Part shown: in pieces, positions 28,018 through 64,000 of the stretch
How positions within the stretch are numbered: position 1 is the stretch's first letter
Layout of the letters: the number at the start of each line of letters is the position of its first letter
The notes under the pieces: model-generated
The model's database searches: none
What the model saw: only the letters and a program-made list of their open reading frames with translations
What the model was told of the DNA's origin: nothing
NCBI RefSeq assembly: GCF_020379485.1
Contig: NC_063439.1
Span: 13,337,683-13,401,682 of the forward strand
Reading direction: 5' to 3'
Origin: Brassica napus
Taxonomy: Eukaryota > Streptophyta > Magnoliopsida > Brassicales > Brassicaceae
Length of the DNA stretch: 64,000 bases
Position numbers and translations under genes: made by a program

Positions 28018-28090
28018 ATTTGATTGAGAGTGATGTGGCTTTTGCGGGTTAGATTGATTTGTACCCCCTCCCCTCCTTCTAGCGCCAAAC
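28018..28090 (-). other. B1 leader and primer binding site
   Basis: Immediately inside the 5' LTR the - strand reads GTTTGGCGCTAGAAGG followed by a G-run. TGGCGC fits a tRNA ending ...GCGCCA, but the sequence differs from the tRNA-Asp site of family A. I cannot name the tRNA. The same site is at 35573-35594 and 52519-52540. Confidence 0.65.
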
Positions 28091-28675
28091 TGTGGGAACC
28101 GAAATTCGCACTGTCGATTTCCGTTTAAATAAGGAAACTAGGAAAACCCTAATTTCCCAGAGGACCCGGATATCTGCTAATTACCACACGTCAAGCGATT
28201 AGAACACGAGAATAACAACGATAAAGTATAAGAAATCGAAAAAGAGAGCAAAGAAGATCTTATTCCGAATTTGCGTATGAGCGTTTACAACAAGGCATAC
28301 GCCTGGGCTCGAGAGCTGTCGGCGAGATTCCTAGTTCTAGCAACCCTAAGACGGCTAAACCTAATTGAGTCGCAGCTCGAAATAACAAAAACGGAAAAAT
28401 GCCTAAATTGCTCTAAGTGCTAAGTTTGCTCTGAAAAAAATCCTTTCATGCTCCTCGCCTAGGACTCCTTATATACTAACTCCAAGGTCGGTTTACGCTT
28501 TTACTCTTCTGCCCTTAAGCCGTCATAGCATGAAAGTGGAGATATTCCATTTTTCCCGATCTTCACAATTATCTTCAAAACTTCCGTATTTATCCGCGGA
28601 AACTTGAAATTTATCCTTCCTTGTGAACCAAGCGTAAACTGTGCTGTGGTTTACGGGCTTTTGGTTAAGAAATCG
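28091..28675 (-). repeat. 5' LTR of B1, inner piece
   Basis: TGTGGGAACC start of the LTR (R/U5 and TATA region), cut at AATCG (28671-28675) by B2. It continues after B2 with a second AATCG. Comparison with 21712-22918 shows the break falls within 'aagaaatcgtagg'. Confidence 0.85.
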
Positions 28676-42411: not shown

Positions 42412-42809
42412 TGATATACCTTGGATTTGATCCATTTTTATCCATGGTATATTAGTATTTTACTATATATATATATCTCTGTTTTCTACTCTTCTAGGTA
42501 TGTTTTCAGGTTCAGGTGCATTTTGGAGCATAAAGGACATTTCACCCGAGCTGACCACTTAGAGGTCGATGAGAGGAAGAATAATCGATCGATGCGCATC
42601 AGTGCTGACGATCGATATCAGGAAATGCCTCGACAGTTGAAGATTAATATCGATCGATGTACACAAGTACCATCGATCGATGTCGAGACACCATACGCGA
42701 CATTTTGGATTCAGCAGACTTAAAAACCAAGGCCAAGCCAAATTACCAAGATGCCCTGACGAGTTTTTAACCTAGTAGAATATATACTGCAAGTGTTTTG
42801 ACGGCAAAG
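42412..42809 (+). repeat. 5' LTR of A4, truncated
   Basis: The first 398 bp of the LTR (U3, with three TCGATCGA octamers) end at TTTTGACGGCAAAG. U5, the primer site and part of the leader are missing. 42810-42860 is about 50 bp of filler of unknown origin, after which the gag leader resumes (CTCTTTCTAATAATC...). Confidence 0.8.
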
Positions 42810-42889
42810 TCATAGCTTCCAATATCATCCTTCTTGATATAATGTTGCTGACCTCTTTCTAATAATCTTTTTCTTGTCTTTTCAGGTGC

Positions 42890-45165
42890 ATGCCCAGCGG
42901 TACCAGAAGCAACAAGGAGAAAGATTTGCAGTTCTCAGATGATCCTGCTCATTTGGAACGCACCATCCGTAGAGGTCAACATTCCACATCGCTCGACGCA
43001 ACAACTTCGTCGTCGATCGATACGCACAATCAACCGTCGACCGACACCAGACCGTCATCGTCGATCGATCCCAATCGTTCGACAACGATCGATACTACAC
43101 CGCGTACGTCGATCGATACCGTGTCGTCAAAAATGGTAAACATTATTATTCTTACTCAGGATGAGAACGGAAACCTGTATGACCAGGCCGGTCATCTGTG
43201 TAATGCAATAGGTCAGAAAATAGATGCTCAGGGAATTGTAATCCCTGATGCTGATGCTACAGGAGCTGCTCAACCTGTAGATGAGGACGCTCGATCGAAA
43301 CCACTGGCCGACTACAATCGCCCAGATGAGTACTATTCCAACAGATCAGCTATTCGACTTCTGGATATCCAGAAGCAGAATTTCGAGCTGAACCCTCAAT
43401 ACTACACTCTCGTGTCGCAGATACCCTACTCTGGGTTACCGCACGAGCATCCTATAGACCATTTGGAACGGTTCGAGGATCTAATCGCTGCTATTCGGAT
43501 AGAAGAAGTCCCCGAAGATTACCTGCTGTGCAAGCTCTTCAGATACACGCTAACTGGAGAAGCGATGCACTGGCTTAGGCAGCAACCCACATGATCTTTA
43601 ACATCCTGGAGCGACATAAAGAATGCTTTCTTACGAAACTTCTTCGCTGAGGCGCGCGCTGAAGAACTTCGGAACAAAATTTCCACATTCTCGCAGAAGG
43701 CTGGAGAGTCCTTCAAAGATGCGTGGATTAGATTTAGGTTCTTCCAGCGATACTGTCCACACCACGGATTTAACGAAGTGCAGCTGCTAAGCACTTTCTT
43801 CCGAGGTCTCGCCTTACAGTATCAAATGGCCCTTGATACGGCGAGTGAAGGAAACTTCACTACTCGGAATCCGTTGGAAGCTGTGAGACTTATCGAAAAC
43901 CTTGCTAACAGCAGCAGCACCAAAAACACTGACTCTAAACGGAAGAAGTCTGTAGCCTATATCGGGAAGAAACAGATGGACGAAGTAAGAACTAAGTTAG
44001 ATGTGGTGCACGAGCTTCTTAGGAAGCAAGTCTGTTCAGCTGAAGGAGAAGTAACAGATACGGAAGGAGAAGAAAACGTGAATTACATCGGAGGTACCGG
44101 ATTCCAGAAAGTTGGAAACCAGGGCAGAAACAGAAACTTCTTTGGAAATGGCCAAAGAAGTAACCAAAATTCACAATTTCAAAAACCCTTCAACAACAGC
44201 AAGAGCTATTCAAACTCTTACTACCAAAATCCACCACCCCAGACTCAGGAAAGCAAGATCGAAGAGATGCTTGATCGAGTACTGTTGGGACAACAACAAA
44301 TCACCGTAGATTTCAACGGTAAGATAGACTCTGCCTACAACAATCTGAACACCAAAATCGAGACCTTAGGGACTCAGGTGAGAAAACTTGAAACCCAAGT
44401 AATTCAGACGGACGAGACTATAAAGAGGCAAGAAGCTTTCGCTAGAGAGGCAAGAGCCGACAAAGGAAAATACCACGTAAATGCCATCATAGATGATGAT
44501 TTCTGGCAAGTGGTGAGAAATGAAAAGCTTGAGGAAGGAGATTTCGAAATCGAAAGCTCCATGAGTCTCGGTGGATCCCAATGGTGTCGACCGATGTCGA
44601 TGAACTCGCATCGATCGACAGACCATGATGAAGATCGATGGATGGATTACTCTAGTCATCGATCGACGTCGTCTGCCAAATCGACTGAATGCAATGCGGT
44701 TTAAATTCTAACTCATGAAGAATTCGCAGCTAAGCATCCTCACCCACCCTCCCCTTTCTATGAAAAAATCGATCGATCGGTTGAGCCAACCATCGATCGA
44801 CAGAGTGAGTCCGACGTTGATCGTCAAAACACACCACCCATCGATCGACAGGCACCTCTGACATACCGAGTGCGGTTACCCTCAATCGATAATGATTACA
44901 TCAATGCAATCAGACCACCACCTAAACCATTAGCAAACCCACCCGAACCAACACCCAACCCTTTAAATAGTTCACCAGAATCAGTTCTAGAAGAACAAGA
45001 ATCTGAAGGGAGAGGGTTAAGGAAAAGAAAGGAGAAGATTCCTAAAAACCTTAAGAGGGAAGCTAACGATAAGGAGATGGATGGTTTCACTAAACGAGTC
45101 CTCAGGATCCCAATCGAAAAACCTTTTGATGAAGCTTACTTCACACACCGGTTGTGGATGTTCTT
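42890..45165 (+). pseudogene. A4 gag, two stops, cut by B3
   Basis: One reading frame from MPSGTRSNKEKDLQFSDDP through SID motifs, DExG module, gag domain, Asn/Gln-rich part and coiled coil, SID linker and Lys/Arg segment. Stops at 43592-43594 (TGA where others have GGA) and 44702-44704 (TAA where others have CGA). B3 interrupts it after the RLWMFF segment, with duplication TTCTT (45161-45165). It continues at 54047. Confidence 0.85.
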
Positions 45166-46698
45166 TGTGGGAACCGAAATTCACACTGTCGATTTCCGTT
45201 TAAATAAGGAAACTAAGAAAACCCTAGTTTCCCAGAGGACCCGGATATCTGTTAATTACCACACGTCAAGCAATCAGAACACGAGAATAACAACGATAAA
45301 AATAAGAAATCGAAAAGAGAGCAAAGTAGATCTTATCCGAATCTGCGTATGAGCGTTACAACAAGGTATAAGCCTGGGCTCGAGAGCTGTCGGCGAGATT
45401 CCTAGTTCTAGCAACCCTAAGACGGCTAAACCTAATTGAGTCGCAGCTCGAAATAACAAAAACGGAAAATTGCCTAAATTGCTCTAAGTGCTAAGTTTGC
45501 TCTGAAAAGTTCTCCTCTCTGCTCCTCGCCTAAGACTCCTTATATACTAGCTCCAAGGTCGGTTTACGCTTTTACTCTTCTGCCCTTAAGCCGTCATAGC
45601 AAAAAATGGAGATTTTCCATTTTTCCCGATCTTCATAATTATCTTCAAAACTTCCGTATTTATCCGCGGAAACTTGACATTTATCCTTCCTCGTGGGCCA
45701 AGCGTAAACCATGATGTGGTTTACGGGCTTTTGGTTAGAAAAATCGTAGGATGGGCTTCGAATCGTGTTTTAGGTCCCTTTGGGCCGTCTTCCGACTCGA
45801 CACGTTTACTACGAGTTTTCCGCGGTTTCTAATCCGCGAAGTTTGATCGATGAATTAGAATAGCGGGAAACATGGACTGAGCTTGCTACGGTCTTCGGGA
45901 GATAGCATTCGAAGGTTTGACGAGAATGCATGGACTGGTGTCGTATCGATGTTCGGAAAGGTTCAATCGCTACACAGCGACCGAACTTTGGCTCGAGCCC
46001 GGTCGCTACGTAGCGACCGAGTGAGACGAGTGCTCGGTCGCTACGTAGCGACCGAGCTTTGGCTTGAGCTCGGTCGCTACGTAGCGACCGAGCGGGACGA
46101 TCGCTCGGTCGCTACGTAGCGACCGAGCTTTGCTGAGCTCGGTCGCTACGTAGCGACCGAGCGGGACGAGCGCTCGGTCGCTACGTAGCGACCGAGCTTG
46201 GCTGAGCTCGGTCGCTACGTAGCGACCGAGCGGGACGATCGCTCGGTCGCTACGTAGCGACCGAGCTTTGGCTCGAGCTCGGTCGCTACGTAGCGACCGA
46301 GCGGGACGATCGCTCGGTCGCTACGTAGCGACCGAGCTTGGCTGAGCTCGGTCGCTACGTAGCGACCGAGCGGGACGATCGCTCGGTCGCTACGTAGCGA
46401 CCGAGCTTTGGCTCGAGCTCGGTCGCTACGTAGCGACCGAGCGGGACGATCGCTCGGTCGCTACGTAGCGACCGAGCTTGGCTCGGGTTTGGTTGCTACG
46501 TAGCGACCGGACGGCGTGTATACGTAGCGACCGAGCTTGGTTTGTTCGGTTTGAATCCCAAAGGATACTTCTTCGTAAAAACCTCGTATAGGTTATTTTT
46601 ACGAAAATTACATCTCTTCTTTTACTAACTCTTTCGGAAATACGATCTCCGAGGATTTTCGGGTGGTAATTCCGTCGTAACCGTTTTTGACCCCAACA
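45166..46698 (-). repeat. 3' LTR of B3 (1533 bp)
   Basis: TGTGGGAACC...GACCCCAACA on the + strand. The palindrome array (about 45966-46530) has about 16 units. Private changes against the partner LTR include GATCTTATCC for GATCTTATTCC, TAAGACTCC for TAGGACTCC and GAGATTTTCC for GAGATATTCC. Confidence 0.92.
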
Positions 46699-46830
46699 GT
46701 TAGCCCCCCAGCCCGTTAGGATCATGCATCGTAGGATCCTAGCGTGCGGTTAGGCATGTTTGGCAAGTTAGGCGTGATGGATGGAATTAATATCCGAAAG
46801 TCCGAGCTTGAATAGTAAATCCTCATGTCT

Positions 46831-46836
46831 TATAAG
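46831..46836 (+). promoter_or_regulatory. TATA-like box of the B3 antisense gene
   Basis: TATAAG in the conserved TATAAGAAG...GAGGTAAC block, 122 bp before the ATG at 46958. Confidence 0.5.
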
Positions 46837-46957
46837 AAGAGAGGTAACTTGTTCCATAATTTTTTCACTTTCTTGTTTTTCTCTAAGATCTTTCAAAAAA
46901 AAACTTTCTATCTTTCTCTCCACCCTTTTCCTCTATTCTCTCAAGAGAAGTGTAAAG

Positions 46958-48754
46958 ATGTCGAGCAAGAAAAAGATTGCGAAAAAAGGGTCTTCGTCCG
47001 CGAGTCCTTATGAAGAGCTCGTCGTTCCGAAGATGGAGTTCGTGCCTCACTCGGTGCATCCTGCCGAGAACGAGGCATGGTGGGTTGCTCATTATGGCTC
47101 GTTGACCCCTCCCAAGGAGAAGCCGTTCCCGGTCCTGGTCCATCGTGGAGTCGAGGAAGAGGATGCAAGCAGGACTACTGACGAGTTTCTCGCGACGATG
47201 CGATCGTTCTACCACATCCCGGATGCTGTGGAGTTCCGGGTTCCCTGCCGCGGGGAATGTGCTAACAACCCCCCGGAGGGTTACTTTACTTGTTATGAGG
47301 CGTTCGTAGTGCGTTGTCGCCTCTGGTTCCCCATACCCGAAATTCTCGTCCGAGTGTTGGACCGTTTCGAAGTTGCGATAAGTCAGTTGACACCCCTTGC
47401 CATTCAGCACCTTATTGGGATCCTGATCCTAAGCTACGAGCATGGCCTTTCCCTTTCCGTCGATCATTATGAAGCGCTTTTGAGGCTTCAACTTGTCAGG
47501 GGTACGGATAAGCATAGGTTGGTCCCTCGGAAATTTATGTCAGTGGTTAAGAAGTTTATTTCGAACTTCAACTCGTGGAAGAAGTTCTTTTTCTTTGTCC
47601 GTATAGACGCTGCATCCGTCGAAGAGAGTTGCATTCCATTGTTCCGGAGGTTGCCGAATGATCGTCCCTTCATCAACCCTTTTGCTCCGTTCCCCGAGGA
47701 CATCATTTCGGTGAGGGATCTTCTCAGGAATGGTCCCTTCTTCTGGACTTCTTTTACGCCGAAGAGGGTTCGGAAGGCACTGAGATTCGTGCAACCCGGT
47801 CCTGCTTTGGATGCGGACACGGGAAGCGACTCCGAACCCGACGACCAGAATCCCGTCGAAGCTCCACAGCTGCGCCGGAGTCGAGCTCTTGGAAGGGAAA
47901 AGATGTCGATCTTGGCGACATAGAGTTTTCGATGGATGACTCTATGCTTCCAGGATGGGATCCGAACCTTGCTTACGGCGACGGGAGCGGTTCGAGCGAG
48001 GCCCCTATTCCGGATTTCGATGATTTCTTTGCTGGGCTGCCATCGGGTTTCGATGCTCCTCCTCCTACGAAAGAATCGGCGAGGCCGAGAGTCGTTGCGG
48101 AAGGATCTCGCATCATCAATGGGGTTAGTTTTTTTTTTAGAATTTTTTGGTGATTGTCCTATGTATATATTTGTAACATGCCAATCGATTTTGCAGGGCC
48201 TGAGCTTGCTGGGCTCGGCCATTGAGGCGGGCCATAGAGAAGCCATGGTCTACCGCTTCAAGGCGGAGAAAGCGGAGCGGGATCTCGCTCGCGTGCAAGG
48301 CGAGATGCTGGAGCGAGAGGCGCAGCTTACTCGTGATCATGCGCGGGCTGTTCGTAAAGCGGAGAGGAAAGGCAAAAGAGAAATCGTCGAGGTGATGAAG
48401 ACTCGTGCATCTCAGTTCCAGGTTGAGTATGGGAACCTCAAGAATGCCTTTACCTCGGTGGGTGACTTTCGCGAGTGCCGCGGTTCGGTCGGAAGTCTTT
48501 GGAGGACGCGAGCCGATGACTATGTGTTTGAAGAGGAAATGAGCTTGATGAAGAGTGGGATGAGTGACCGTGCCCATGCTGAGGCGCTTATCCCTCCGAT
48601 TGACGAGAGGATTCAAGGGTTCTGGGATTCCATCCCGGTTTCCCCTGATACCGAGGAGGTTCCGACCGGTTTTCCCGATGGTGGCGAGGAAGTGGATCGT
48701 CCTGCGGATGCGTTCGGTGCTTCGTTGTCCGGGGACTTTGACTTTGGATTATGA
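46958..48754 (+). pseudogene. B3 antisense gene, intron-containing, one frameshift
   Basis: Exon 1 starts [20 protein letters not shown] and is open past the [26 protein letters not shown] and SYEHGLSL segments to about 47861. There one missing base (in the CTCCACAGC stretch) shifts the frame, which then continues through the acidic [11 protein letters not shown] linker to 48123. The predicted intron is 48124-48196 (GTTAGT...TTTGCAG, 73 bp). Exon 2 (48197-48754) is the charged coiled coil ending [15 protein letters not shown]. The basic N-terminus could be nuclear-targeting (inference). No enzyme motif is seen. Confidence 0.8.
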
Positions 48755-49898
48755 GGGATGGATCAGTTATCCTTTTATCTGTTTTCGGCCGAGTGTGGCC
48801 CTTTGAATTTGGATTTCGTTTAGGCCTAGATGGCCGTATTTGTATTTACCGGGACTGGCCGTTGGTGGCTTTGAATCCCTTGCCGCTTTACGCGGTTTAT
48901 TTATATGATAAATGTTTTGTTTCGAGTTTTCCTGAGTAGGGTTGAAGTAAATACGAGTTGTCGTCTCGTATTTAGTTCTGATTAGACGTTCAATCTGTTG
49001 GTTCGTTCGTGATTTTCGTAAAAATTTACTTATCTTTACGATTTTCGAGAACATTGAGATACGAACGGAGAGACATGGTTTAGGATCTCGTATCTTTTAG
49101 ATATCATGCCTTGAGATGTTTGAGACCAGAGCGTTGGGTTTAGGGCAAGACCTAGGTTTACTTTCGGTTAAGGTTTGTGCGGTGACTAGCCGGCTATCGT
49201 TTTTCCTGTTGCGATTTCTTCCTGACTCGCACCGATTTAAAGTCCGCGATATGTTCTCGGCTTATATGACTTGTATGGTACGAATCGAGCATCTTCTCAG
49301 AATCAACTGGAAGTGCTAAACCAAAATTTCGGATTTTTGTTGTAGCGCGCTTTTGTCCTTGTGCTGGACGTTTTTAAAGATCAAAAGAGTGATCGGATTG
49401 CGTTTGTTTAAGACGGCTGGCGTGTTCGTCGGGGCCAATCGACGAACGGGGTGTAAGGTTTTTGGTGGTCGCGTTCGGACAATTTGTTAGTATTGTCCTC
49501 GAATTTTAACTTTTGCGACGTCTCGCAGTTATTTCGAGGCTTATACGTGTATTTTTGCGTGTTTGAAAGATGATAATCTTTACGATTTTTGGGCCGGAAG
49601 GGGCCGTAGACAAGAGTCTTAACGTTTTCAGGCGTGTCCTGAAAGTTTCTTTTGTGTTTTACTGAAGCGTAAACGTTTTCGATAAAAAAGGACAACGTAT
49701 ATTGTAGTAACCGTTTTTGAAGTTTCTAAAAACTCGATTACAATAATGAAGATGTTTCTAAGTGGGAGTATACGCACCCACTCCCCCCCCCCCCTTTTTA
49801 GAGAGGGGTATAGCTGAACTCGTCTTTTGACGGGCTGCCTACGTACCCCTTTCGAGGATCAAGCCATCTCGTAGTTCTGTTTCATGCCGCGAGTGTTC
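48755..49898 (+). other. B3 spacer between antisense gene and gag-protease
   Basis: GGCCGAGTGTGGCC-type repeats (48786-48865), the conserved 67-codon block (49116-49319), a C12 tract (49783-49794) and GCCTACGTACCCCTTTC (about 49846). No pol sequence is present. Confidence 0.65.
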
Positions 49899-52475
49899 TT
49901 ACTCGGCGGTAGATGTCGCGATGTCCGCCTTGACCGTGTCGATCGTGGCTGGGTCGACGCTATTTTCCGGATGTTCCGGTTGAGTTGTTGCGAGGGCTTC
50001 GGATTTATGTCGAGCTTCGACGTCCGATGCGTTTGCGTTGATAGACGATTTTACTTCGTCTTCTCCCGGGGCGCTTTTGGCTGAAGATCGATCTATCTTT
50101 GCGCGTTTGCCGTTTGCGGAAGCCGTGATTTGCCTTAACTTATGCTCCACGAGGAAGCATAGTCGCGATTGTTTTTGGCATCAACTTGAGACCCAGGTGG
50201 TAGGTTGACGGAACTGCCTGCATGGCGTTGAGCCATGGGGTTCCCATGATCACGTTGTAGATAGCGGGATGATCGACTACCGCGAATTCGACGATTTTCG
50301 TGATTTCCTTGGCCATGACTGGCAATTGGATTGATCCGAGAGTCATCGACACTTCGCCTGAAAAACCCGTGAGCGGTTTTTGCGTCGGGATTACTTCTCC
50401 GAGTTCGATACTCATCCGCTTGAGAGTGTCGCGGAAGATTACGTTGACCGTGCTTCCCGTGTCGACGAGTACCCTTCCGACTTCTAAATCTCGTATGACG
50501 AGATCTATGACGAGCGGGTCGCAGTGAGGTTGGTCGATACCGCCGGCTTCTTCCTCCGTGAAGGTGATCGAGCAACTTTGGCCGTCTCGAGGAGGAGACC
50601 ATGTAGGCCAATTTGCACTTGACTCTGCCTTCCGTTGGTAAGCCTTGATGGCCGACACGGTATCGCCGCAGTATTGTGATCCTCCGATGATCATATTGAC
50701 TCTGCGACGATTGTTATCGTTCCCTTTGTCATCCGGCCTCCTACCGCGTTTATCCCCAGGATGGTTTCGTTGAGGGGATTTTTCAGCGGGCGGATTTCTA
50801 TCCGTCTTTGGAGGCCGATCAGAATCGAGGATGAGATCCTTGACGCTAGTTACTTCCGAAAGCTCTCCAGCGAGTAGCTTCGCGGCCAGTCTTGCTCCCA
50901 AGACTTTGCAATTGGTCGTGGAGTGTCCTCGGGATTGGTGGAACTCGCAGAAGGTGTTTTCGTCATACCCTTGATTGCGAGTCCATGTGTTGCCCGTGGT
51001 CCGGCCTTGATCCGAACTGATCGCATAGTTATGCGCCCCTTGGAGATCTTCCCCCTCGTGATGGACGTACTTGTCGTTACGAGAGTTCTTCTTTTTCCCC
51101 TTCGGATCTGCGTCTTTCGAGGATGGTCTTGCCGGCTTATGTTTTTGCGATAAGACTTTAGTTTCTTCCTCGACTATGATGTAGTCCGTTGCTTTGTGGA
51201 GGGCGTCCTGGATCGTTCGCGGTTTGTCGAGAGTTATCCATTTTCTGAATTTCGACTTGTACCAGAGCGTCTTTCTCAGCGCGTCGATGGCCACTTTGTC
51301 GCTTATCCCGCTGACCCTGGACATTATCAGCTTGAACCGACTGATAAACTCGCGGAGGGGTTCGTCTTCCCTCTGGGAGAGACTCCAGAGGTCAACATCG
51401 GAGGTTTCCCTGTCTATGAATACAGAGTACTGTTTGAGGAATTCCGATGCGAGCTGTCGAAAACTCCCGATGGTGTTGCGACGAAGGCGTGCGAACCATT
51501 CGAGCGCTGCTCCTTCGAGATTTTCGACGAACAGGCGGCAATAGCCGGCATCTTTTTCGCCGTCCTTCAGTCTTGCTCTTCCCATCGCGATGTGGAAAGC
51601 CTGAAGGTGCGCTTTTGGATCGGCCGTACCATCGTACTTCGGTACTTTGATCTTTCCCGGATCGGACACCCTCATGTCCGAAATGCGACTGGTAAAGGGG
51701 TCTTTCGAGCTCCTTCCAGCAGTCGATCGATCTCGGGGGCAGCACTAGTAGCATGATGGATTTGAGACTTTACGGCTCTCACTTCTGCCGCAGTCTTAGT
51801 GATGTAGTCGCGAAGATCGCGGATATCCGATGTCTCGTCAGTGGATTTCCGAGCCTGTCGGCGTTTACTGCGAGTGAGCTCGGTTTGCCTTTCGGCCAGC
51901 TCCTCTTGTTCGTTCCAATAGGCGACTTCTTCTTCTTCCGTCATTGGTTTTTCGAACGGGGAGCCTTCCCGAGCGGATCGGCTTCTGGTCCTTCTTGGAT
52001 GTCTGTCGACATCCTCGTCGGTGTCGTTGGAGACATCGCTAGGATCCAGGTCAATGTGTTCGGCTTCGTTATCCTCCGAGTCCTTTGCAGGGGGCGGAAG
52101 ATTTTCAGGGTTCCCCTTTTCGACGGGAGATTTCTCGCTAGGGTTTTGACCGGAAGGTCGTTCCCGCGCGAGTCCTGCTCTATCGAGTGGGGTGGCGAAG
52201 TCGAGCCTCTTCCCGCGGATTTTGGTGGTTCCGCGGGGACGGATAGCTTGGGTCCTTGCCGTTAAGGTTTCAACCTGTTTGGTCAAGGTATTCACGAGCT
52301 TATCCTGTTCTTCCGACCTTTTCTCATAGGTGGCGAACATCTTTTTGAACTCCTCGAGCGTCGCGGCGTTGGCTTGCGCGTTGGCCGCGGATACGTCCGC
52401 TACTGGAGTGTGGAGATCGGTGCCGCTGCCTCCATTAAGAGGAGTTTGCACGTTATCCGCGTCGTTGGTTGACAT
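49899..52475 (-). pseudogene. B3 gag-protease, frameshift and small deletion
   Basis: From [15 protein letters not shown] (52475) the frame is open to about 51705. There one G is missing from a G-run, and the 511-codon continuation (51675-50140) holds the gag domain, the complete [14 protein letters not shown] knuckle, a basic region and the protease with VDTGSTVN (near 50455). About 30 bp are deleted near 50182 after STYHLGLK, removing the [10 protein letters not shown] segment and shifting the tail (50150-49899). Confidence 0.85.
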
Positions 52476-52541
52476 GTCAGATTGTGTGTGGCTTTTGCGG
52501 GTTAGATTGATCCGTAAGTCCCCCTCCTTCTAGCGCCAAAC
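52476..52541 (-). other. B3 leader with primer binding site
   Basis: Same as B2: TGGCGCTAGAAGGAGGGGG in element sense, three bases inside the LTR, then a short leader to gag. Confidence 0.7.
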
Positions 52542-54041
52542 TGTGGGAACCGAAATTCACACTGTCGATTTCCGTTTAAATAAGGAAACTAAGAAAACCC
52601 TAGTTTCCCAGAGGACCCGGATATCTGTTAATTACCACACGTCAAGCAATCAGAACACGAGAATAACAACGATAAAAATAAGAAATCGAAAAGAGAGCAA
52701 AGTAGATCTTATTCCGAATCTGCGTATGAGCGTTACAACAAGGTATAAGCCTGGGCTCGAGAGCTGTCGGCGAGATTCCTAGTTCTAGCAACCCTAAGAC
52801 GGCTAAACCTAATTGAGTCGCAGCTCGAAATAACAAAAACGGAAAATTGCCTAAATTGCTCTAAGTGCTAAGTTTGCTCTGAAAAAGTTCTCCTCTCTGC
52901 TCCTCGCCTAGGACTCCTTATATACTAGCTCCAAGGTCGGTTTACGCTTTTACTCTTCTGCCCTTAAGCCGTCATAGCAAAAAATGGAGATATTCCATTT
53001 TTCCCGATCTTCACAATTATCTTCAAAACTTCCGTATTTATCCGCGGAAACTTGACATTTATCCTTCCTCGTGGGCCAAGCGTAAACCATGCTGTGGTTT
53101 ACGGGCTTTTGGTTAGAAAAATCGTAGGATGGGCTTCGAGTCGTGTTTTAGGTCCCTTTGGGCCGTCTTCCGACTCGACACGTTTACTACGAGTTTTCCG
53201 CGGTTTCTAATCCGCGAAGTTTGATCGATGAATTAGAATAGCGGGAAACATGGACTGAGCTTGCTACGGTCTTCGGGAGATAGCATTCGAAGGTTTGACG
53301 AGAATGCATGGACTGGTGTCGTATCGATGTTCGGAAAGGTTCAATCGCTACACAGCGACCGAACTTTGGCTCGAGCCCGGTCGCTACGTAGCGACCGAGT
53401 GAGACGAGTGCTCGGTCGCTACGTAGCGACCGAGCTTTGGCTTGAGCTCGGTCGCTACGTAGCGACCGAGCGGGACGATCGCTCGGTCGCTACGTAGCGA
53501 CCGAGCTTTGCTGAGCTCGGTCGCTACGTAGCGACCGAGCGGGACGAGCGCTCGGTCGCTACGTAGCGACCGAGCTTGGCTGAGCTCGGTCGCTACGTAG
53601 CGACCGAGTGGGACGAGCGCTCGGTCGCTACGTAGCGACCGAGCTTGGCTGAGCTCGGTCGCTACGTAGCGACCGAGCTTTGGCTCGAGCTCGGTCGCTA
53701 CGTAGCGACCGAGCGGGACGATCGCTCGGTCGCTACGTAGCGACCAAGCTTTGGGTCGAGCTCGGTCACTACGTAGCGACCGAGCGGGACGATCGCTCGG
53801 TCGCTACGTAGCGACCGAGCTTGGCTCGGGTTTGGTTGCTACGTAGCGACCGTACGGCGTGTATACGTAGCGACCGAGCTTGGTTTGTTTGGTTTGAATC
53901 CCAAAGGATACTTCTTTGTAAAAACCTCGTATAGGTTATTTTTACGAAAATTACATCTCTTCTTTTACTAACTCTTTCGGAAATACGATCTCCGAGGATT
54001 TTCGGGTGGTAATTCCGTCGTAACCGTTTTTGACCCCAACA
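52542..54041 (-). repeat. 5' LTR of B3 (1500 bp)
   Basis: TGTGGGAACC...GACCCCAACA. About 16 palindromes (about 53346-53880). The TATA box in element sense is the complement of 52918-52924. The array differs from the 3' LTR array by a spacer change and about one palindrome near 53640-53700. Confidence 0.92.
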
Positions 54042-54046
54042 TTCTT

Positions 54047-57000
54047 CAGAGAAACAAAGGTAACCGAGGAGGACATTAGGAGAATGTTTCATCAAGTCAG
54101 AGAGAAGATGAAACACAGGATCACATTGACGAAGAAGAGTGATCCTGGGAAGTTTGCAATACCATGCGTAGTCATGGGTGTTGAATTTCCCCATTCAATG
54201 TGTGACACAGGAGCATCAGTTAGTATCCTCCCTAGGATCATGGCAGACCAGCTTGGTTTGACCATCGAACCCTCAACGGAATCCTTCATCTTCGTGGATC
54301 TTTCAGAGAACGATCAAGAGGTATCATAAGAGATCTGGAGGTACATATTGGTAATGCCCTTGTCCCTGTAGACTTTCATATCTTAGACATCGAGCTTAAC
54401 TGGAACTCTTCACTTCTGCTTGGAAGATCTTTCCTAGCTACTGTAGGAGCTGTATGTGACATGAACAAAAACAAATTGTGTCTAACGCTCATAAACCCAA
54501 ACATCCACTACGACCCCATCCGACCTAAGAGAAAGGTCATTAATTCTGTGGATTATGGGAAAGAATTTGGCTTCATTGGCGCATGCCATTGTGGAGCAGA
54601 GTATGAATCGGAGTACGAAACAGAGTACTCAGAATCAATCGACACCCCAACCTTTCCATCGATCGATTCCAATGTGTCAACGGTGACCGATGACCGCAAC
54701 AACACGTCATTCGACGTAATGCACCCAGTTGACCATTTCGCTTCACCCAATCATTGTTACCAACATTTTGCCTTCCAACCTCCAAGCAAGAGACGACATG
54801 ATGATTATTCCATAGGCAGTTGGGCAGACAGTGGTTTCCATGAAAGTTTTGCAGTTGACACTGTAATTACTTCACCTAATGAGGAACATACGGAGGAATA
54901 CGATGAGGATTACTAGAAAGAACGTGCAATAGAAATGTCTTTGCAGGATGAAAGACTTGAAACACATAAGTTCACCAACACGTTTCCAGCATCGTTCGAC
55001 GCTATGCACTCCACATCGGTCGATACCCACCCTCGTCTAGCAAAACAACCGCTAACATCGATCGACACCCGTAAAGGAACATCGATCGATATTCGCGCCG
55101 CAGCGAAAATTCTGGAGCAGGAGAATATTCCCTCCCAAACTAGGTTTATAGATACCTATATAAATCGTTTTGCACCTCCGAAACCACCTACACACATCAG
55201 AGCAAACACACAATAAAAAAAGATGAATACTCTTCCTTCTACATCAACAGAAAAATCCATGAAGAGCAATCATCTCAAGAACACAAGTTATGCAGAAATT
55301 ACTCTGCCATCGATCGATGTAACTGTATCTAGATCGATCGATACTACTCTAAACCCTAATTTCTCTATTTCTAAAATGAATGATTATACAAAAGTGATTA
55401 CGGTTTTCTAACACCTGATTAATTTGGTATTTTCAAAGACCCACATGGCAACGCACGTGCAATGGATGGAAGGATTTTACAAGTGTCTAGAGAGGACATA
55501 GCAGACATCCTTCAAGTAGCCAATGGACCTGACAACCTGTTCTCACAGCAACGTGGCACTCCAGACGTGATTCAAACAGATCCTAACAACCACGCAGGAG
55601 TCGCCACAACAGAGACCAACCCAGATCTATCACGCCAACCAAAAGGGCAAGCATCGATCGACGGTATAACGGAGACATCGATCGATAGGGTAACACCAAC
55701 GTCGATCGATATGGATGAACCGACGTCGATCGACAGACAGTATGAATGTGGGAACCGCGCTTTCGACATGTATGGAGCCAGAAAGTTCACTTGGGAACAA
55801 AGGGGCGAGTATGGAGTCTACAGAGATGAGCGTGGACACGCACGAGGCGCAGCTGGTGAGATGATACCTGTCGCAAAGTACAACATCAGGAAAATACTTA
55901 AAAGAGCATCTCTTTTTGAAGAGAGCCACATCTGTCTTCCAGAACATGCCACTTCCTTCACACTCACAAGACTGGCACCAGAACTCTACACCAATAAAGA
56001 AATCGATGAGATGGTGTTTGGTATTTGTGGAGCTCTGGAGAAACTGGGAGAGAAGCTCAAAACATTGGTAGAAGACACACATCAACCTTTGGATAGAGGC
56101 TACAATGAGCTTTTCAGATGTATAGCAGAAATGAGGACATAAATTGAGAGTTTACATCAGCAACTTGAGAAGGAAGCTACGACCTCAGCATCGATCGACG
56201 CACCACATGCAACATCGATCAACGTCAGTCTTCCTACAGCTCAGATCCCTGCAGAACCGTAATGTTCAACACAACAGAGGGATGAATGGGAAGTCTCATA
56301 CATCGACACGAGGATAAACGACGTTTACTGCCCTCTCAACAACAACGTGGACTGGCTAAGCACCAAAATCGAGCTACTACAGCAAGATCTGGACACCATT
56401 CGCAAGAAGGCCCAACAACCAGCCACATCGATAGACATCTGTACGTTCACATCGCTCGACGCCAAAGTCTCAGCAATGAATGAGAGGCTGAGGACTTACG
56501 AGGATATGCATGACCGCTTTATATCACCAGTCATGATAGATTTAAACAAATTTTCTAGTCAATTACTTCATGCCCAAAAGGATATTGAGAACATTACTAA
56601 TCAAAGTTTTTTGCAGGCAAAATCAGCATCGATCGACAGGCTAAGAGGACCCTGGATCGATGGCAAGAAACCTGTGGAGTTACTTCCTTACACAGCAGCA
56701 GAGGTTGACAAGATCACATCCAAGATCTACACTGCTCTAGACACCATGGAAGAACGACTTGACAAACGCTGCGATGACATCTACTTTCCATTCGACAACA
56801 AAATCAGTGGACTAGACAACCACGCAGAATGGCTATAGAAAGAAGTCAAAGCCATTCAGAGGCAACTCACAGCTCAACACCAGATATCAGCATCGATCGA
56901 CATGACAATAGCAAAATCGATCGACGGCAACTCGCCGAGATCGACCAACGAACACATAATCGCATCGATCGACGCCGAGTCTGTACCAATCGGCGAGCAG

Positions 57001-57264
57001 CTGATACACAAGACGGTAGAGTCAATGCAAAAGGAACTGACAGATCTTTCAGCATATTCCTATGACAACATAGGCTGGCACCAGGTCAGCATTGACAACG
57101 TTCAAGAAAGGCTACAGAACATCTCCAACGTACTTGAGAAGATGGATGACAAATGGACAAGAAATGATGAGGGCACAAGAATTTTCATTGCATCTTGGTC
57201 CAGAATGCGCAGAGATGACGTGGATGCTTGCTTTCCAACAAGCAGCTGTTTCTCCACCCAATAG
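54047..57264 (+). pseudogene. A4 protease and SID part of polyprotein, several lesions
   Basis: The protease leader resumes directly after B3. DTGAS is intact (54204-54218). A frameshift near 54310 breaks the segment after it. A frame with ATVGAV and EYESEYETEYSE (54461-54916) ends in TAG. A linker with SID motifs (54935-55216) ends in TAA. The SID part begins MNTLPSTSTEKS (55223) and has a frameshift near 55390, then the DExG modules (about 55800 for the second), stops at 56140-56142, about 56260 and 56836-56838, and the true C-terminus at 57262-57264. A2 and A3 are open at the two linker stops, so these are private mutations in a once continuous polyprotein. Confidence 0.8.
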
Positions 57265-58671
57265 CCAATCACTACCACAATCAAGTTAAATGACTATAAC
57301 CAAGCGCTGAGTGGGAGGCAACCCACTATTAGGTATTTTACTTTGGTTTTATTAGCTAGCATTTAATTTCTTTCGTTTTATTTCTTTCAGATTTAGGAGA
57401 CCCAAGTAGGAGGACTTGAATATCGACCGACGACGAGACGTCGACATCGTTCGACATAGGCAACCAAACGACGATCGATGTAACACTTACCCATCGATCG
57501 ATATCTAATCCGGTTAGATGTATCTTCCCTACTTGTTACATTTCGTACATCATGAAATATTCATCATAACTCCGGCTGAGTTACACTGGGACAGTGTAAT
57601 TTAAGTCTGGGGGGAGATTTACTGATATAATTTATTTTATTCTTATGTAAAAAGGAATTTCAAATAAATTATGCTTAGCTATTAAAAATAGGGACTATTA
57701 TCTTATATTGATTTAAACATGAATATCTAACCAATCTTTAGCATCATTTTAGATTTATTGATTGCTGATATCACTAAAGATGCTAAAGCGGATCAACCTA
57801 TCAACTACACACTTGCCTTGAACCGTATGAAGTAACCAAAGCTGATTTCCAACACTAAACCTGACATAACCGCTTGTCTTGGGGCTTGGTATACATGGGA
57901 TCGGATTCTTCAGACAGTTCTGGAAGGTAACGCCTGGTTTAGATTATATATCACATTTTCTCTCTCTAGATTTCGACCCTAGATTAGTTAGTGAGTGTAA
58001 AAAAAAAAAATAATAATAATAATAAAAAAATAAGATCTATTGTTTAAATAGGATGAGTCTGAACAGGACTTGGTGGCTAAAACCATTAAGGCTTGATTCA
58101 TAAGGACTCAAATAAAAGAGTTCGAAACGGGACTTGGAGGCGCCAATCTTCAAGGCTTGCTTTCGCAAAGAACTCTTGGATATAGGTCAAAAAGAAGTGA
58201 ACAGAACTTGGTGGCAACCACCATTAAGTTTTGATTCATGGAAGCCTGTCCAATCTTGGTCACTGATCCTGCAATGGAAGCAGACTTTGACTCAAGAGAA
58301 AAATTTAGAGAGAGAGAAACTAGGAACTAACTTTTACCTGCAGCTCCAGATACCTGTCTGAAATCCTTGCATCCTGTGATCGATACTCCCAAGGTAAAGC
58401 ATTCACTTTATATTTATGCTAAGAAATGAAATCAGTAGAGGGGATGTCAGACGTGAATTGATGAGTTGTGTTATGTTAGAAATGGTTGCTAAGCTAGGAT
58501 ATTGCATAGTGTGCTTTTGTGGTTAGGACTTTTTAAATGTGGTTGCAAAATTGTTGAGGAAAGATTTCTATGTTTTAAAATCTTAAGTTCCCAAATATTT
58601 TCAAACCTCTTTCAGAGAGACTGCCTGTATGTTTTGCTTGAGGACAAGCAAAAGGGTAAGTCTGGGAGAGT
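57265..58671 (+). other. A4 3' non-coding region and polypurine tract
   Basis: Collinear with 2182-3876 but without the 284-bp duplication. It holds one internal PPT-like stretch (AAGTCTGGGGGGAGATTTAC, about 57602), an A/TAA-rich tract (57997-58032), and the terminal tract GTAAGTCTGGGAGAGT (58656-58671). No supported gene. Confidence 0.7.
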
Positions 58672-59961
58672 TGATATACCTTGGATTTGACCCATTTTTA
58701 TCCATGGTATATTAGTATTTTACTATATATATATATCTATGTTTTCTACTCTTCTAGGTATGTTTTCAGGTTCAGGTGCATTTCGGAGTAAAGCTATGAC
58801 TTTGGAGCATAAAGGACATTTCACCCGAGCTGACCACGTACAGGTCGATGAGAGGAATAATAATCGATCGATGCGCATCAGTGCTGACGATCGATATCAG
58901 GAAATGCCTCGACAGTTGAAGATTAATATCGATCGATGTACACAAGTACCATCGATCGATGTCGAGACACCAGACGCGACATTTTGGATTCAGCAGACTT
59001 AAAAACCAAGGCCAAGCAAAATGACCAAAATGCCCTGACGAGTTTTTAACCTAGTAGAATATATACTGCAAGTGTTTTGACGGCAAAGAGAGTTTTTTCT
59101 AGACCTAGTTTTGTTACAAGTTTCATTTGGGAGAGAAGATCACTTGTGATTGGAACTCCTTGTTTCTATTTCTTTTCATCTATTCTATGAGTTTCTATTT
59201 ATCTATTGATATGAATTGCTTTGCTATGTCTGAGTAGTTCAACTGTTAGATCCAGGGTTCAGATAGGTTTGTGGGATTAGCCCCAAACTATAGATCTGCC
59301 TTGTTGTGATATTCATGATAGATTTGTATTCATTGCTTGTTTTAGCCTTGCTAACTAGAACTTGATCATAGGATTGCATATTCAAGCACCATTGTTATCC
59401 CATCCTGACATCTATCTATCATATTAGGATTGCTAGAGAGGGCTAACCGCCAATTTAGGATCTTAGTAGGGCATTTCATACTCGCGCATAGGCCTGGCTA
59501 GAACCCGTCGATCGATGTCCTCAACTGACAATCGGTCGATGTTGGCAAAGGTGTATCGGTCGACGTCTTAATAGACTATCGATCGACACTCTCTTGTGTC
59601 TGCATCTAACCGGTGAGACACAAGATCTAGTCTGTTAACCAGTGGTACATACGACAGCTGATCACTGAGTTAAGCGAATGAGCTCTAATGTATCATGCAT
59701 GCAACAGTTAGGTATCTATAGGTATTATAATCTCCAACACCTGAATAGTGGCCCTGCATCTAATATCATTTCCAACCAAGTTACATTTATTATTTACTCG
59801 CTTGTTACTATTGCTATTTCATTAAAACATGTACAACCTTTAGAATTAATAAACACTAGATTTAATTGTTCCCTAGCTTCTTGTGGATTCGATCCCTAAG
59901 TACTACATCTGAACCTCTTTTGATTAGAGTAACACTCCTTAGGGTAATTTGAGTGGTATCA
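58672..59961 (+). repeat. 3' LTR of A4 (1290 bp)
   Basis: TGATATACC...GGTATCA, followed by TACAT. Close match to 3877-5177. Octamer sites are at about 58863, 58929, 58953, 59508 and 59579. Confidence 0.9.
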
Positions 59962-60236
59962 TACATCGATCGATATTAATCTTCATTTGTCGAGGCATCC
60001 CTTGGTGTCAATCGACAGCACAGATGCGCATCGATTGATTGTTCTTCCTCTCGTCGATCTCTACATGGTCAGCTCGGGTGAAATGTCCTTTAAGCTCCAA
60101 AATGCTCCAAAGTCATAGCTTTACTCCGAAATGCACCTGAACCTTAAAACATACCTAGAAGAGTAGAAAAAATATATATATATAGTAAAACACCTATATA
60201 CCATGGATGAAAATGAGTCAAATCCAAGGTATATCA
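59962..60236 (-). repeat. 5' LTR of A2, outer piece
   Basis: After the TACAT duplication, the complement of the LTR 5' end continues (ATCGATCGATATTAATC...) to CCAAGGTATATCA. Together with 41200-42411 it completes one - oriented family-A LTR. Confidence 0.85.
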
Positions 60237-60252
60237 GAGTAGTATCAGGTAT
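60237..60252 (+). other. Last 11 bp of A1 3' LTR plus GGTAT target duplication
   Basis: GAGTAGTATCA matches the family-A LTR terminus GAGTGGTATCA with one change. The next five bases, GGTAT, equal 11369-11373 in front of the A1 5' LTR. This marks the right boundary of the whole 49-kb nest inside B0. Confidence 0.7.
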
Positions 60253-60331
60253 GATGAGTTTGAACGAGATTGGCGTATTTAGGCGAAGTTCATATCCAAA
60301 AGTCCGCAAGTAAATAGTAATTTCTCATGCC

Positions 60332-60337
60332 TATAAG
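60332..60337 (+). promoter_or_regulatory. TATA-like box of the B0 antisense gene
   Basis: TATAAG followed by AAGGGAGGTAAC, 124 bp before the ATG at 60456. The block is conserved in all four B copies although the surrounding leader is diverged. Confidence 0.5.
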
Positions 60338-60455
60338 AAGGGAGGTAACTTCTTCATAATTTTTTTCACTTGCTTGTTTACATAAGGAGCTTTCTTGAAA
60401 GAATTTCTCTCTTCTCTCCATCTTTTTCTTCTTGTTTTCACTTGAAAATTACAAA

Positions 60456-62249
60456 ATGTCGAGTAGGAAAAAGACTTCGAAGAAAGGCACCTCGTCCGCA
60501 AATCTCCATGAAGAGTTCCTTGTGCCGAAGATCGAGTTCGTGCCTCATTCGGTAGATCCAGCTGAGAACGAGGCGTGGTGGGTTGCGAGATATGGTTCAA
60601 TCACACCTCCCAATGAGAAATCGTTCCCAGTCTTGAACCATCGTTTGGTCGAAGAAGGTGCACCGAGTAGGAGCACTAGCGACTTTCTTCGGACAGTGTG
60701 GTCGTTGTACCAAATTCCGGACACGGTGGAATTCCGGGTTCCTTGTCAAGGAGAGCGTGCTAGTAGTCCCCCGGAGGGTTACTTTACTTGTTACGAAGCG
60801 TTCATAGTGCGCTGCCGCTTGTGGTTCCTGATTCCCAAAATCATCGTCCGTTTGCTGGATCGTTTTGAGGTGTCGATAAGTCAACTAATCCCCCTCAGTA
60901 TCCAGCACCTTGTTGGCGTTTTGATCTTGAGTTACGAGCACGGTCTCTCCCTTTCCGTCGACCACTTCGAAGCGCTTTTCAGGTTGCAGATTGTTAGGAA
61001 TACAGACAAGTACCGACTCGTCCCTCGGAACTTCATGTCGGTGGTCAAGGGGTTTCCTTCCAACTTCAACTCGTGGAAGAAATTTTTCTTCTTCGTTCAT
61101 ATAAACGCTGCATCTGTCGAAGAGAGTTGCATCCCATTGTTCCGAAGCCTACCGAACGATCGTCCCTTCATCAATCCGATTGCTCCGTTTCCTGAAGATA
61201 CGATCGCAGTGAGGGATCTTTTCAGGAACGGTCCGTTTTTCTGGACCTCCTTCACACCGAAGAGAGTTCGAAAGGCGTTGAGGCTCGCGCATCCCGGTCC
61301 TGCTTTGGGCGTGGAAACAGACAGCCACTCCGAGCCTGATGCTCCGGGTTTCAATGTTGCTCCCGTGGGCACGACGGGGTTAAGGTCCTCGAAGGGGAAG
61401 GATATCGACCTCGGTGACATAGAGTTTTCAGTGGATGATTCAATGCTCCCAGGATGGGACCCGGACATTGCTTACGGCGATGGAAGTGGTACGAGTGAGA
61501 TCCCTATCCCAGATTTTGATGATTTCTTTGCCGATCTACCCTTGAGTTTTGATCCTCCCCCGCCTGTGGACGAATCGGGAAGGTCGAGAGTCGTTGCGGA
61601 AGGATCTCGTATCATCAATGGGGTTAGTTTTCAAGAATTTCGCCGATAATTCTATATATTCCTTTTCCCGCCTAAAACATGTTAATTGGTTTTGCAGGGT
61701 GTGAACTTGCTTGGCTCGGCCCTTGAGGCGAGCCATAGAGAGGCCATGGTCTATTGCCTTAAAACGGAGAAAGCGGAGAGGGATCTTGCTCGTATGCAAG
61801 GCGAGATGTTGGAGCGAGACTTGAAACTTGCTCGTGATCACACGAGGGCCGTTCATAAGGCGGAACGGAAGGGTAAGAGGGAGACCGTCGAGGTGATGAA
61901 GAGTCGTGCCTCTCAGTTCCAGATTGAGTACGGGAACCTCAAGTATGCTTACACTTTGGTGGGTGATTACCGTGGGTGCCGCGGTTCAGTCAGGAGTCTT
62001 TGGAAGACGCAGGCGGAAGATTACGTTTTCGAGAAGGAGATGAGGTTCATGAAAGATGGCATGAACAACCATGCCCATGCTGAGATGCTCATTCCCCCGA
62101 TCGACGGGAGGATCCCGGGATTCTGGGATCCTGTCCTGGTTTCTCCCGATACTGTAGAGGCCACGACCGAGTTCGCTGGTGATGACGAGGAAGTGAACTA
62201 TCCCGCTGATGCATTTGGAGCTTCCTTGTCCGGGAACTTTGATCTGTGA
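60456..62249 (+). CDS. B0 antisense gene, intact, two exons (572 codons)
   Basis: Exon 1 is 60456-61622, the predicted intron 61623-61697, exon 2 61698-62249, with no stop or frameshift. Residues 1-15 are basic ([15 protein letters not shown]). About 30-270 is the conserved globular part ([61 protein letters not shown]). About 310-389 is an acidic, Pro-rich linker ([19 protein letters not shown]). Exon 2 is a charged coiled coil ([20 protein letters not shown]). The ATG is chosen by agreement with B2 and B3. It lies between the element's PPT and spacer, opposite to gag. It resembles extra proteins of Tat-like gypsy elements. Function is unknown: it could act in DNA or RNA binding or regulation, but no catalytic motif is seen. 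It is intact in the oldest B copy with a complete antisense gene. Confidence 0.8.
61623..61697 (+). other. Predicted intron (75 bp) in the B0 antisense gene
   Basis: AATGGG|GTTAGT...TTTTGCAG|GGT, phase 0, T-rich with a possible branch-like TTAAT stretch before the acceptor. Without removal, the frame stops within the intron. Same site as in B2 and B3. Confidence 0.78.
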
Positions 62250-63455
62250 GAGGTGAGCGTTTAATGGGAAGAAGTTTTTTCCCTTATCTAGTATTTTGCG
62301 GCCGAGTGTGGCTTTCGTTCGCCTATGTCCGGCCGAATGTGGCCTTTGAACTTTGTATTGGTCTGTTTTGGCCGTTTTTATCTTTTTCGGGACTGGCCGT
62401 TGGTGGATTTGAATCCCTACCGCTATGCGGTTTATATATATAACAGATGTTTGTTTGAGTTACTTTGTTTCGAATGGGTTTGAAGTAAATATGAGTTGTC
62501 GTCTCATATTTAATTCCGTTGAGACGTTCAATCTGTTGGTTTGTCTAAGACGTGATTTTTCGTAAAAATTATTTATTCTTACGAACTTTCCGGAACGTTG
62601 AGACATGAACGGAGAGACATGGTTTAGGATCTCGTATCATTTTTTAGATATCATGTCTTGAGATGTTAGAGACCAATGCTATGGGTTTAGGGCAAGACCT
62701 AGGTTTACTCTCACTTTTAAGGTTTGTGCGGTGACTAGCCGGCTATCGATTTTCCTGTTGCGATTTTTACCTGATTCGTACCGATTTAAAGTCCACGATA
62801 GGTTCTCGGCTTATATGACTTGTGTGGCACGAATCGAGTATCTTTCCAGAGATAATTTTTAAGCCAACTGGAAGTGCTAGACCAAAATTTTGGATTTTTT
62901 TAGCGTGCTTTCATCCTTGTGTTGGATGTTCGAGGATCAAAAGAGTGATCGAGTTGCGTTTGTTTAAGACGGCTGGCGTGCTTGTCGAGGCCTATCGACA
63001 AACGGGGTGTAAACATTTGTCGAGTTTTTGTGGTCGAGTTCAGACAATTGTCTGCAGAGTTTTCGATTTTCAACTTGGCGACGTCTTGCAGTTGTTTCGA
63101 AGACTGTATGTATATTTTAGGTGCTAAAGAATGACTGCTCTGTGATTTGGACCGGATAAGGCCGTTGACCAGAGTCTAATGTTCGTAGATTTTCTAAGTG
63201 TGTCCTGAGACTTTTTCCGTTAATTGGAGCGTAAGTCTTTAATAAAAGAGAAAAATGCGTATTGTAGTAAAGTTTTAAAAAACTTGATTACAATGATGCA
63301 TCCTTTAAAACGTGGGAGTATACGAGAATATGTACCCACTCCCCCCCCCCCTTTTTAGAGAGGGGGATAGCTGAAATCGTTCTTTGACAAGCTGCCTACG
63401 TACCTCTTTCGAGGATCAAGCCATCTCGTAGTTCTGTTTTATGCCACGAGTATTC
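62250..63455 (+). other. B0 spacer between antisense gene and gag-protease
   Basis: Several GGCCGAGTGTGGC / GGCCGAATGTGGCC / GGCCGTTGGTGG phrases (62300-62406). The ALGLGQDLGL block is present but frame-broken (about 62665-62870). A C11 tract is at 63343-63353, and GCCTACGTACCTCTTTCGAGG at about 63393. No pol. Confidence 0.65.
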
Positions 63456-64000
63456 TTACTCGGCGGTTGTCGCCATGCTGACCACCTTGATCGTGGTGAC
63501 TGTGGCAGGTTCAATGTTTTTATCCGGGTGTTCCGGTTGAGTCGTAGTGTCAGCTTCGGAATCGTGTTGAGTTTCGGTGTCCGAAGCGTTTGCGTCAGCA
63601 GACAATATCGAATCGTCTTTCGTTGAAGTGTTTTCGGCCAAAGGTTAAGCTAACTTCGTGCGCTTGCGAGTTGCCATCGCGGGAGTCGCGATTTGTCTTA
63701 ACTTATGGTCCGCGAGCAAGCATAGCCGCGACTATTTCTGACAACCCCAGATGGCTGCTACTCCGTTCTGGGTTGGGAATTCGACGCCGAGGTGGTATGT
63801 AGATGGAATGGCTTTCATGGCGTTGAGCCACGGGGTTCCCATGATCACATTGTAGATGGCAGGATGATCGACCACCGCGAAATCGACGATTTTTGTGATT
63901 TCCTTGGCCATGACTTGCAGCTGGATCGATCCGAGAGTCATTGACACATCGCTCGAAAAACCCGTAAAGGGTTTTGGCGTTGGAGTTACTTCTCCGAGTT
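63456..64000 (-). pseudogene. B0 protease C-terminus and tail, partial
   Basis: The - strand frame enters from the right edge just after the protease active site ([10 protein letters not shown]...), so the DTGS motif is outside the window. It reads [35 protein letters not shown] and stops within IWGCQK* (about 63740). A second stop lies near 63645, and the tail ends at 63456. The order is the same as in B1-B3, and RT is again absent. Confidence 0.8.

Follow-up and report, generated by a model that had tools for sequence, protein, structure and literature searches.

An antisense gene with a putative intron is under purifying selection in a pol-less Tat/Retand-like LTR retrotransposon family of Brassica napus

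Introduction

According to published work, extra antisense frames are general among Retand elements. In the available part of the survey by Vicient (2025; PMC11963269), antisense frames occur in all recently active Retand clusters and TRP28 in 97% of them, with DNA binding proposed or predicted for the products; the word "intron" is absent from that text. The accessible text of PMC6317226 gives a frequency of 23% for Transposase_28 among Retand elements and also describes the intron of Ogre. For maize Grande, the portion of Vicient and Casacuberta (2020; PMC7264820) at hand describes gene23 as having its own promoter and a nuclear product, and calls for a search for antisense and spliced transcripts. 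A further precedent, seen in excerpt, is provided by the pol-less Athila families of Arabidopsis, which have selected genes and show recombination between lineages (PMC2410132).

Here, we analyzed a 64,000-nucleotide stretch of Brassica napus DNA (the window; contig NC_063439.1, positions 13,337,683 to 13,401,682), which contains four copies of an antisense gene in LTR elements labeled B0 to B3. Like the Retand TRP28 genes (PF04195), the gene lies antisense in the interval that separates the gag-pol side from the 3' LTR, and homologs place it in the same family; two of the published clusters likewise lack RH and INT. However, according to the available text, the published elements were mined through their RT domain and have internal regions of 7.4–12.9 kb (PMC11963269), whereas B3 has 5.8 kb and no detected pol domain. 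Grande gene23 is similarly an antisense accessory gene adjoining the 3' LTR, with its own promoter and a nuclear protein; the likeness is one of description rather than sequence, and the part of PMC7264820 at hand does not mention an intron. The pol-less Athila families resemble the B family in being non-autonomous, in keeping gag and an accessory gene constrained by purifying selection, and in recombining (compare B1 below), but they carry an env gene, and the excerpt of PMC2410132 mentions no antisense gene with an intron. The Ogre intron is also spliced within a Tat-clade element, but it lies in the gag-pol region between gag-protease and pol and, in the text available, is removed from part of the transcripts only (PMC6317226). 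In the literature examined, which leaves Gomez-Orte 2013, Steinbauerova 2011, Kejnovsky 2006, and Ohtsubo 1999 outside its scope, no mention of an intron in the antisense gene was found. Thus, the gene family and its life-style are already known; what is new, as far as these texts go, is an intron-bearing antisense gene in a gag-protease family without a pol domain.

Results

Gene model and intron

The B0 gene runs on the plus strand from an ATG at 60456 to a TGA stop at 62247–62249 and comprises 572 codons when spliced. Exon 1 (60456–61622; 1,167 nt, 389 codons) ends in phase 0 and is followed by a putative 75-nt phase 0 GT-AG intron (61623–61697; 67% A+T), whose two in-frame stops interrupt the unspliced frame, and by exon 2 (61698–62249, stop included; 183 codons). 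Of the GT/AG pairs tried near the stop of the frame, four leave one open frame to 62249, and among these only the pair at 61623–61697 yields 572 amino acids; the other three use other AGs and yield 557–562. The initial annotation had proposed an uninterrupted 572-codon gene opposite to the gag strand, with an intron of 73–75 bp common to B0, B2, and B3, and each of these points was borne out, its coordinates being exact. The gag-protease frames of B1–B3 lie on the minus strand; since the B0 minus-strand frame at 63732–63998 aligns with the B1–B3 protease, the B0 gene is antisense to gag-protease. A TATA-box-like site, identified by motif match only, lies at 60332–60337 on the plus strand, 124 nt 5' of the B0 ATG and within a 50-nt block that is 80% identical to B3. 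TATAA is found 122–127 nt before the ATG in B0, B2, and B3.

The intron occupies the same site in the three copies, with common ends (GTTAGT...TTTTGCAG) and lengths of 75 nt in B0, 74 in B2, and 73 in B3. Without splicing, the frame offset from exon 1 to exon 2 differs from copy to copy. Length differences that are not multiples of three, together with the same ends and constraint on both flanking exons (below), form the comparative signature that a real intron would be predicted to leave in genomic DNA.

B0 is the only open copy among the four in the window. The B2 copy (30055–31852, plus strand; intron 31221–31294, 74 nt) carries a 1-nt frameshift near codon 9, and the B3 copy (46958–48754, plus strand; intron 48124–48196, 73 nt) carries one near codon 303. 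In a tblastn search of the window with the B0 product, B2 was 72% identical at the amino acid level and B3 61%, the latter in one piece spanning its frameshift and intron. The B1 copy (23167–24111, plus strand; tblastn match 23197–24076) belongs to another lineage, with 44% amino acid identity to B0, stops, and no match to exon 2. B1 as a whole (22900–28700) is a mosaic of a gag-protease part with ~91% DNA identity to B2/B3 and an antisense gene from the other lineage. Between B2 and B3, dS is 0.166 in the antisense gene versus 0.057 in gag, and this inequality also suggests recombination between subfamilies.

Selection on the antisense gene

Estimates of dN/dS (Nei–Gojobori, 569 codons) were obtained from three DNA copies (B0, B2, and B3) and the saturated part of B1 (dS 2.9). 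The ratio was 0.146 for B0–B2 (bootstrap 0.10–0.19), 0.144 for B0–B3 (0.11–0.19), and 0.124 for B2–B3 (0.07–0.20). Taken separately, exon 1 gave 0.14–0.16 and exon 2 gave 0.09–0.15, so that the exon-wise comparison proposed with the initial annotation falls, for these pairs, at 0.09–0.16, well under the value near 1 that would have spoken against a selected protein. The linker end of exon 1 (codons 285–389) is looser, with 0.23–0.24 for B0 versus B2/B3 and an upper bound of 0.41–0.44. Among five control readings of exon 1, four gave ratios above 1. Offset 2 of the minus strand gave ~0.2, but this reading contains 14–16 stops, and its low ratio is probably due to coinciding third positions. As yardsticks, gag (0.07–0.16) and protease (0.15–0.21) in B1–B3 gave values similar to those of the antisense gene.

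Two further patterns concern the same copies. The differences between B0 and B2 fall at the three codon positions as 97/76/236 (binomial p ~7e-24). Between B0 and B3 there is one indel in 1,719 nt of exon (the frameshift of B3), two in the 75-nt intron, and 27 in 1,959 nt elsewhere, a count that leaves out one further indel at the stop codon; the contrast is significant for exon versus outside (p ~8e-7) and for intron versus exon (p 0.005). We conclude that purifying selection has acted on the antisense gene along the lineages leading to B0, B2, and B3. The dS of B0 versus B2/B3 is ~1.0, a rough figure that lies near saturation, and by this measure the pol-less lineage appears to have kept the gene to a dS of ~1. 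Given that selection acted on element lineages, the intact B0 frame is no proof of selection on B0 itself. Of the earlier proposal of a selected trans-acting factor, the selected protein stands (dN/dS 0.12–0.15), whereas trans action and selection on B0 itself were too strongly worded, and nothing here separates trans action, help to pol-less copies, and modulation of silencing.

A gag-protease family without pol

B3 is the complete element of the family (45166–54041, minus strand), with a 3' LTR at 45166–46698, an internal region of 5.8 kb at 46699–52541, a 5' LTR at 52542–54041, and a TTCTT duplication. Its antisense gene (46958–48754) lies between the gag-protease frame (50140–51675, minus strand) and the 3' LTR, which is the Retand-type position. 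Frames of B1–B3 exceeded the Pfam cut-off for Retrotrans_gag (PF03732), whereas their matches to aspartic protease families fell short of it. Between protease and antisense gene, the ten longest pieces bounded by stops were scanned in B3 and likewise in B0; none matched a pol domain at E≤1, the outcome being either no match or unrelated matches below the cut-off, in agreement with the pol-less character first proposed. The evidence on pol comprises these pieces of B3 and B0 and nine further ones. In B0, ~1.5 kb separates protease and antisense gene and aligns with B3 throughout, from which we infer that pol was probably already missing before the two split. Comparison of the two B3 LTRs ahead of their repeat arrays showed 5 differences in 801 sites, indicating that a pol-less copy moved recently. 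Constraint on gag and an accessory gene, no pol, and recent mobility are the characteristics of non-autonomous pol-less LTR elements with selected genes, and this family displays them.

A separate observation concerns a conserved stretch between the antisense gene and protease, at 62600–62900 in B0 and at 24575–24870, 32145–32440, 49055–49350, and, on the opposite strand, 6668–6985. Identity between B0 and B3 is 0.88–0.96 per 50 nt, above that of the antisense gene, and the stretch is common to a divergent B-like remnant; 28 consecutive bases within it are invariant in five elements. Overlapping frames reach 102 codons, and the differences between B0 and the remnant (28/24/26 by position) follow no codon pattern. 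The stretch could be a cis-acting signal or could reflect recombination. RNA structure in 62600–62900 received no support from covariation terms (+0.3 and +3.8), Rfam gave no match in 60000–64000, and no tRNAs were found in the window.

Nesting and age of B0

B0 is split by a nested Athila-type insertion. Its right part (60248–64000; sense strand minus) ends at the edge of the window, and its left part (10082–11373, minus strand) holds the 3' LTR and the first internal bases, with 69% identity to the B3 LTR over 1,254 columns. The inserted LTR starts at 11374, and GGTAT is present at both flanks (11369–11373 and 60248–60252); the 11 bases at 60237–60247 agree, apart from a single mismatch, with the terminus of such an LTR. 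Within 11374–60247, A2 is inserted in B0 (GGTAT), and the 3' LTR of A2 in turn holds a minus-strand Athila LTR (labeled A3, ending at 60236), in which lie A4 (42412–59961, duplication TACAT) and, inside A4, B3. The "Athila" label is our presumption, drawn from features of the frame at 56902–57264 and of the LTR; Pfam returned no Athila match for this frame. Athila-type internal sequence also forms a large inverted repeat, with arms at 13811–15236 and 15439–16864 that are 94% identical over 1,426 nt and separated by 202 nt.

The nested insertions with their flanking duplications establish that B0 predates A2, A4, and B3. The initial annotation had placed B0 before A1, A2, A4, and B1–B3, which holds for these three by nesting and for B1 and B2 by position; A1 (1–5177) is situated outside B0 and is left unordered by this evidence. 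It had also described the B0 gag-protease as broken. The B0 protease frame (63732–63998, minus strand; 76-codon alignment with the B1–B3 protease) does end early, at 63732, a point past which the frames of B1 and B2 continue, and has no Pfam match of its own; the B0 gag lies beyond the window. None of B1–B3 has one uninterrupted gag-protease frame either. Across 400 sites of its LTR stretches, A4 shows 11 differences and one gap, which sets a minimum age for B0 of ~1.4% per lineage.

Homologs and protein architecture

Among 7,993 candidate proteins scored, 762 matched at E≤1e-3, and the best 120 of these 762 are all named Brassica. Among them are P0015 and P0019 from B. cretica (81% and 80% identity to B0), P0019 having the same length of 572 amino acids. 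Of the best 120, 116 align across the splice junction in one piece, 96 of them gap-free within 12 residues; P0048, a B. napus protein model, retains the intron as 26 residues. Two wider searches reached other lineages, including Sinapis alba (P0161 and P0166). In total, 158 of 237 fetched proteins span the junction, 118 without a gap and 40 not; three of the gap-free proteins, P0162, P0163, and P0166, share only 36–40% identity with B0 and retain NG|G there. Because protein sequences cannot show an intron in DNA, gap-free junctions in divergent homologs are weak evidence.

B0 exon 1 matched no Pfam family at E≤1. The family assignment comes through homologs: P0019 scores 14.6 bits against Transposase_28 (PF04195) at residues 120–177, below the cut-off of 26.2 bits, and of 58 homologs that were aligned, 30 reach E≤0.1 for this family, the lowest value being 5.8e-6. 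Precomputed PF04195 annotations are carried by 4 of the best 120 of 762, and two of ten further chosen, mostly divergent proteins match below the cut-off. Hence the Pfam "putative gypsy type transposon" family, anticipated for B0, was reached via its relatives and not from B0 itself, in which the Transposase_28-like core lies at residues ~120–177 of exon 1. Judged by homology, the B0 gene is a member of the antisense Transposase_28 group described in Retand elements.

AlphaFold modeling of P0019 with 58 close sequences gave a mean pLDDT of 37 and predicted a long helix in the region of exon 2 (383–476; pLDDT ~55–78 over 391–470). B0 exon 1, modeled with 109 sequences, reached a mean pLDDT of 59 and a pTM of 0.47. 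Both models are of poor quality, and Foldseek and VIA-align found no match in the PDB. Four PDB sequence profile matches at E 0.18–0.95 were taken as chance. An acidic-aromatic segment (windows at residues 316 to 366), considered as an activation domain, occurred in 184 of 237 homologs versus 117.5 in shuffles; it is not distinctive and was left out of the evidence. A scan of viral contigs for relatives gave 41 pattern matches, none confirmed.

Palindrome arrays in the LTRs

The B-family LTRs contain arrays of the palindrome GCTCGGTCGCTACGTAGCGACCGAGC. Counted by its 14-bp core, three B2/B3 LTRs hold 12–18 perfect copies of TCGCTACGTAGCGA each, in 35/71-bp repeats, and the B0 LTR holds one. 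Such arrays would suit a dimeric protein, and exon 2 may supply a dimerizing helix. Arrays of the 26-bp perfect palindrome lie at 45967–46509, 53345–53852, 36401–37099, 38472–39311, and 29397–29642, with copy number varying by LTR, and the B3 3' LTR has 17 ten-base palindromes versus 1.5 on average in shuffles. Minus-strand translations of the arrays give long frames with RSLRSDRA-like repeats that are probably spurious. TRF arrays lie inside LTRs, with none at 46699–50139 (B3) or 60248–64000 (B0), and are not a required feature.

Discussion

With moderate confidence, we regard B0 as one copy, old and since split, of a pol-less Tat/Retand-like LTR element, the antisense gene of which would encode an element-level, spliced, nuclear DNA-binding regulator. 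The gene would be transcribed from its own promoter and its transcript spliced once; the predicted product, with a basic N terminus, a Transposase_28 core, an acidic linker, and a long helix, would regulate the element from within the nucleus by binding DNA. Its most likely role would be to keep the LTRs transcribed, with pol borrowed from other elements and the regulator kept by its own. From orientation, the antisense intron would persist because the RNA that is reverse-transcribed carries its reverse complement. A more specific version, which we consider unlikely, would make the B family a self-contained regulatory parasite: gag-protease particles plus a spliced, antisense-encoded, dimeric nuclear factor that binds the GCTCGGTCGCTACGTAGCGACCGAGC arrays and keeps the LTRs expressed or unsilenced as VANC does, with pol taken from others. 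If so, the intron, which could not be lost through reverse transcription of sense RNA, would mark the antisense mRNA as nuclear-processed. VANC belongs to the VANDAL DNA transposons. The resemblance to these anti-silencing proteins of Arabidopsis, as described in the available part of PMC5735166, is one of working only, i.e., a transposon-encoded factor with targets that are often tandem repeats.

The strongest competitor, though in our estimation an unlikely one, is an accessory protein that serves the particle or integration rather than transcription, either by nuclear import of the pre-integration complex, a role discussed in the accessible part of PMC7264820, or by recruiting pol from autonomous relatives. 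That the family kept the gene as well as gag and protease, yet has no pol domain, would fit such a role, but a promoter of its own would uncouple the gene from gag expression, and the published nuclear localization is compatible with both this role and a regulator.

Antisense frames have also been proposed, in the same partly available text (PMC7264820), to act through RNA. A functional antisense RNA exerting dsRNA control of the sense transcript is nevertheless very unlikely here, as codon-level selection in both exons and a frame restored across introns of 75/74/73 nt point to a translated protein.

Co-option of the B0 copy by the host, with selection in place, would account for an open frame in an element older than those nested in it and in the sole open copy of four, but chance may suffice. 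In simulated neutral decay at the minimum age, the 572-codon frame stays open with a probability of 0.06 (indel/substitution ratio 0.13) to 0.21 (ratio 0.05); the higher ratio derives from three LTR pairs with 4 gaps to 31 substitutions, the B2 pairing being assumed. The corresponding probabilities are 0.08–0.27 at 1.15% and 0.0003–0.012 at 4% per lineage, and in a much older B0 a frame left open by chance would thus be less likely. With 0.06–0.21 and four copies to choose from, an open B0 frame can be luck. In addition, the upstream LTR of B0 is now ~49 kb away and B0 sits among nested elements. Selection in place is therefore highly improbable, and B0 is probably a relic whose frame is open by chance. 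Least credible is the reading in which the 73–75-nt segment is an indel-prone linker and exon 2 a separate frame, for although the P0048 model reads through the segment, B0 has two stops there, B2 and B3 lose the frame, the splice-site ends are kept, and the junction is gap-free in 96 of 116 homolog models (best 120 of 762).

The preferred reading, an element-level nuclear regulator, bears on a wider issue, as the available parts of PMC11963269 and PMC7264820 treat the function of Tat/Retand antisense genes as an open question. A pol-less family that keeps the gene at about gag-level constraint makes it hardly likely that the product is needed only by an element's own polymerase. A gag-protease element with palindromic LTR arrays offers a small set of candidate target sites, and, given that only antisense transcripts can be spliced at the intron, the intron provides a clean assay. 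The most useful new points for this family are the putative frame-restoring intron, the selective constraint on a gene of a pol-less lineage, and a specific candidate target.
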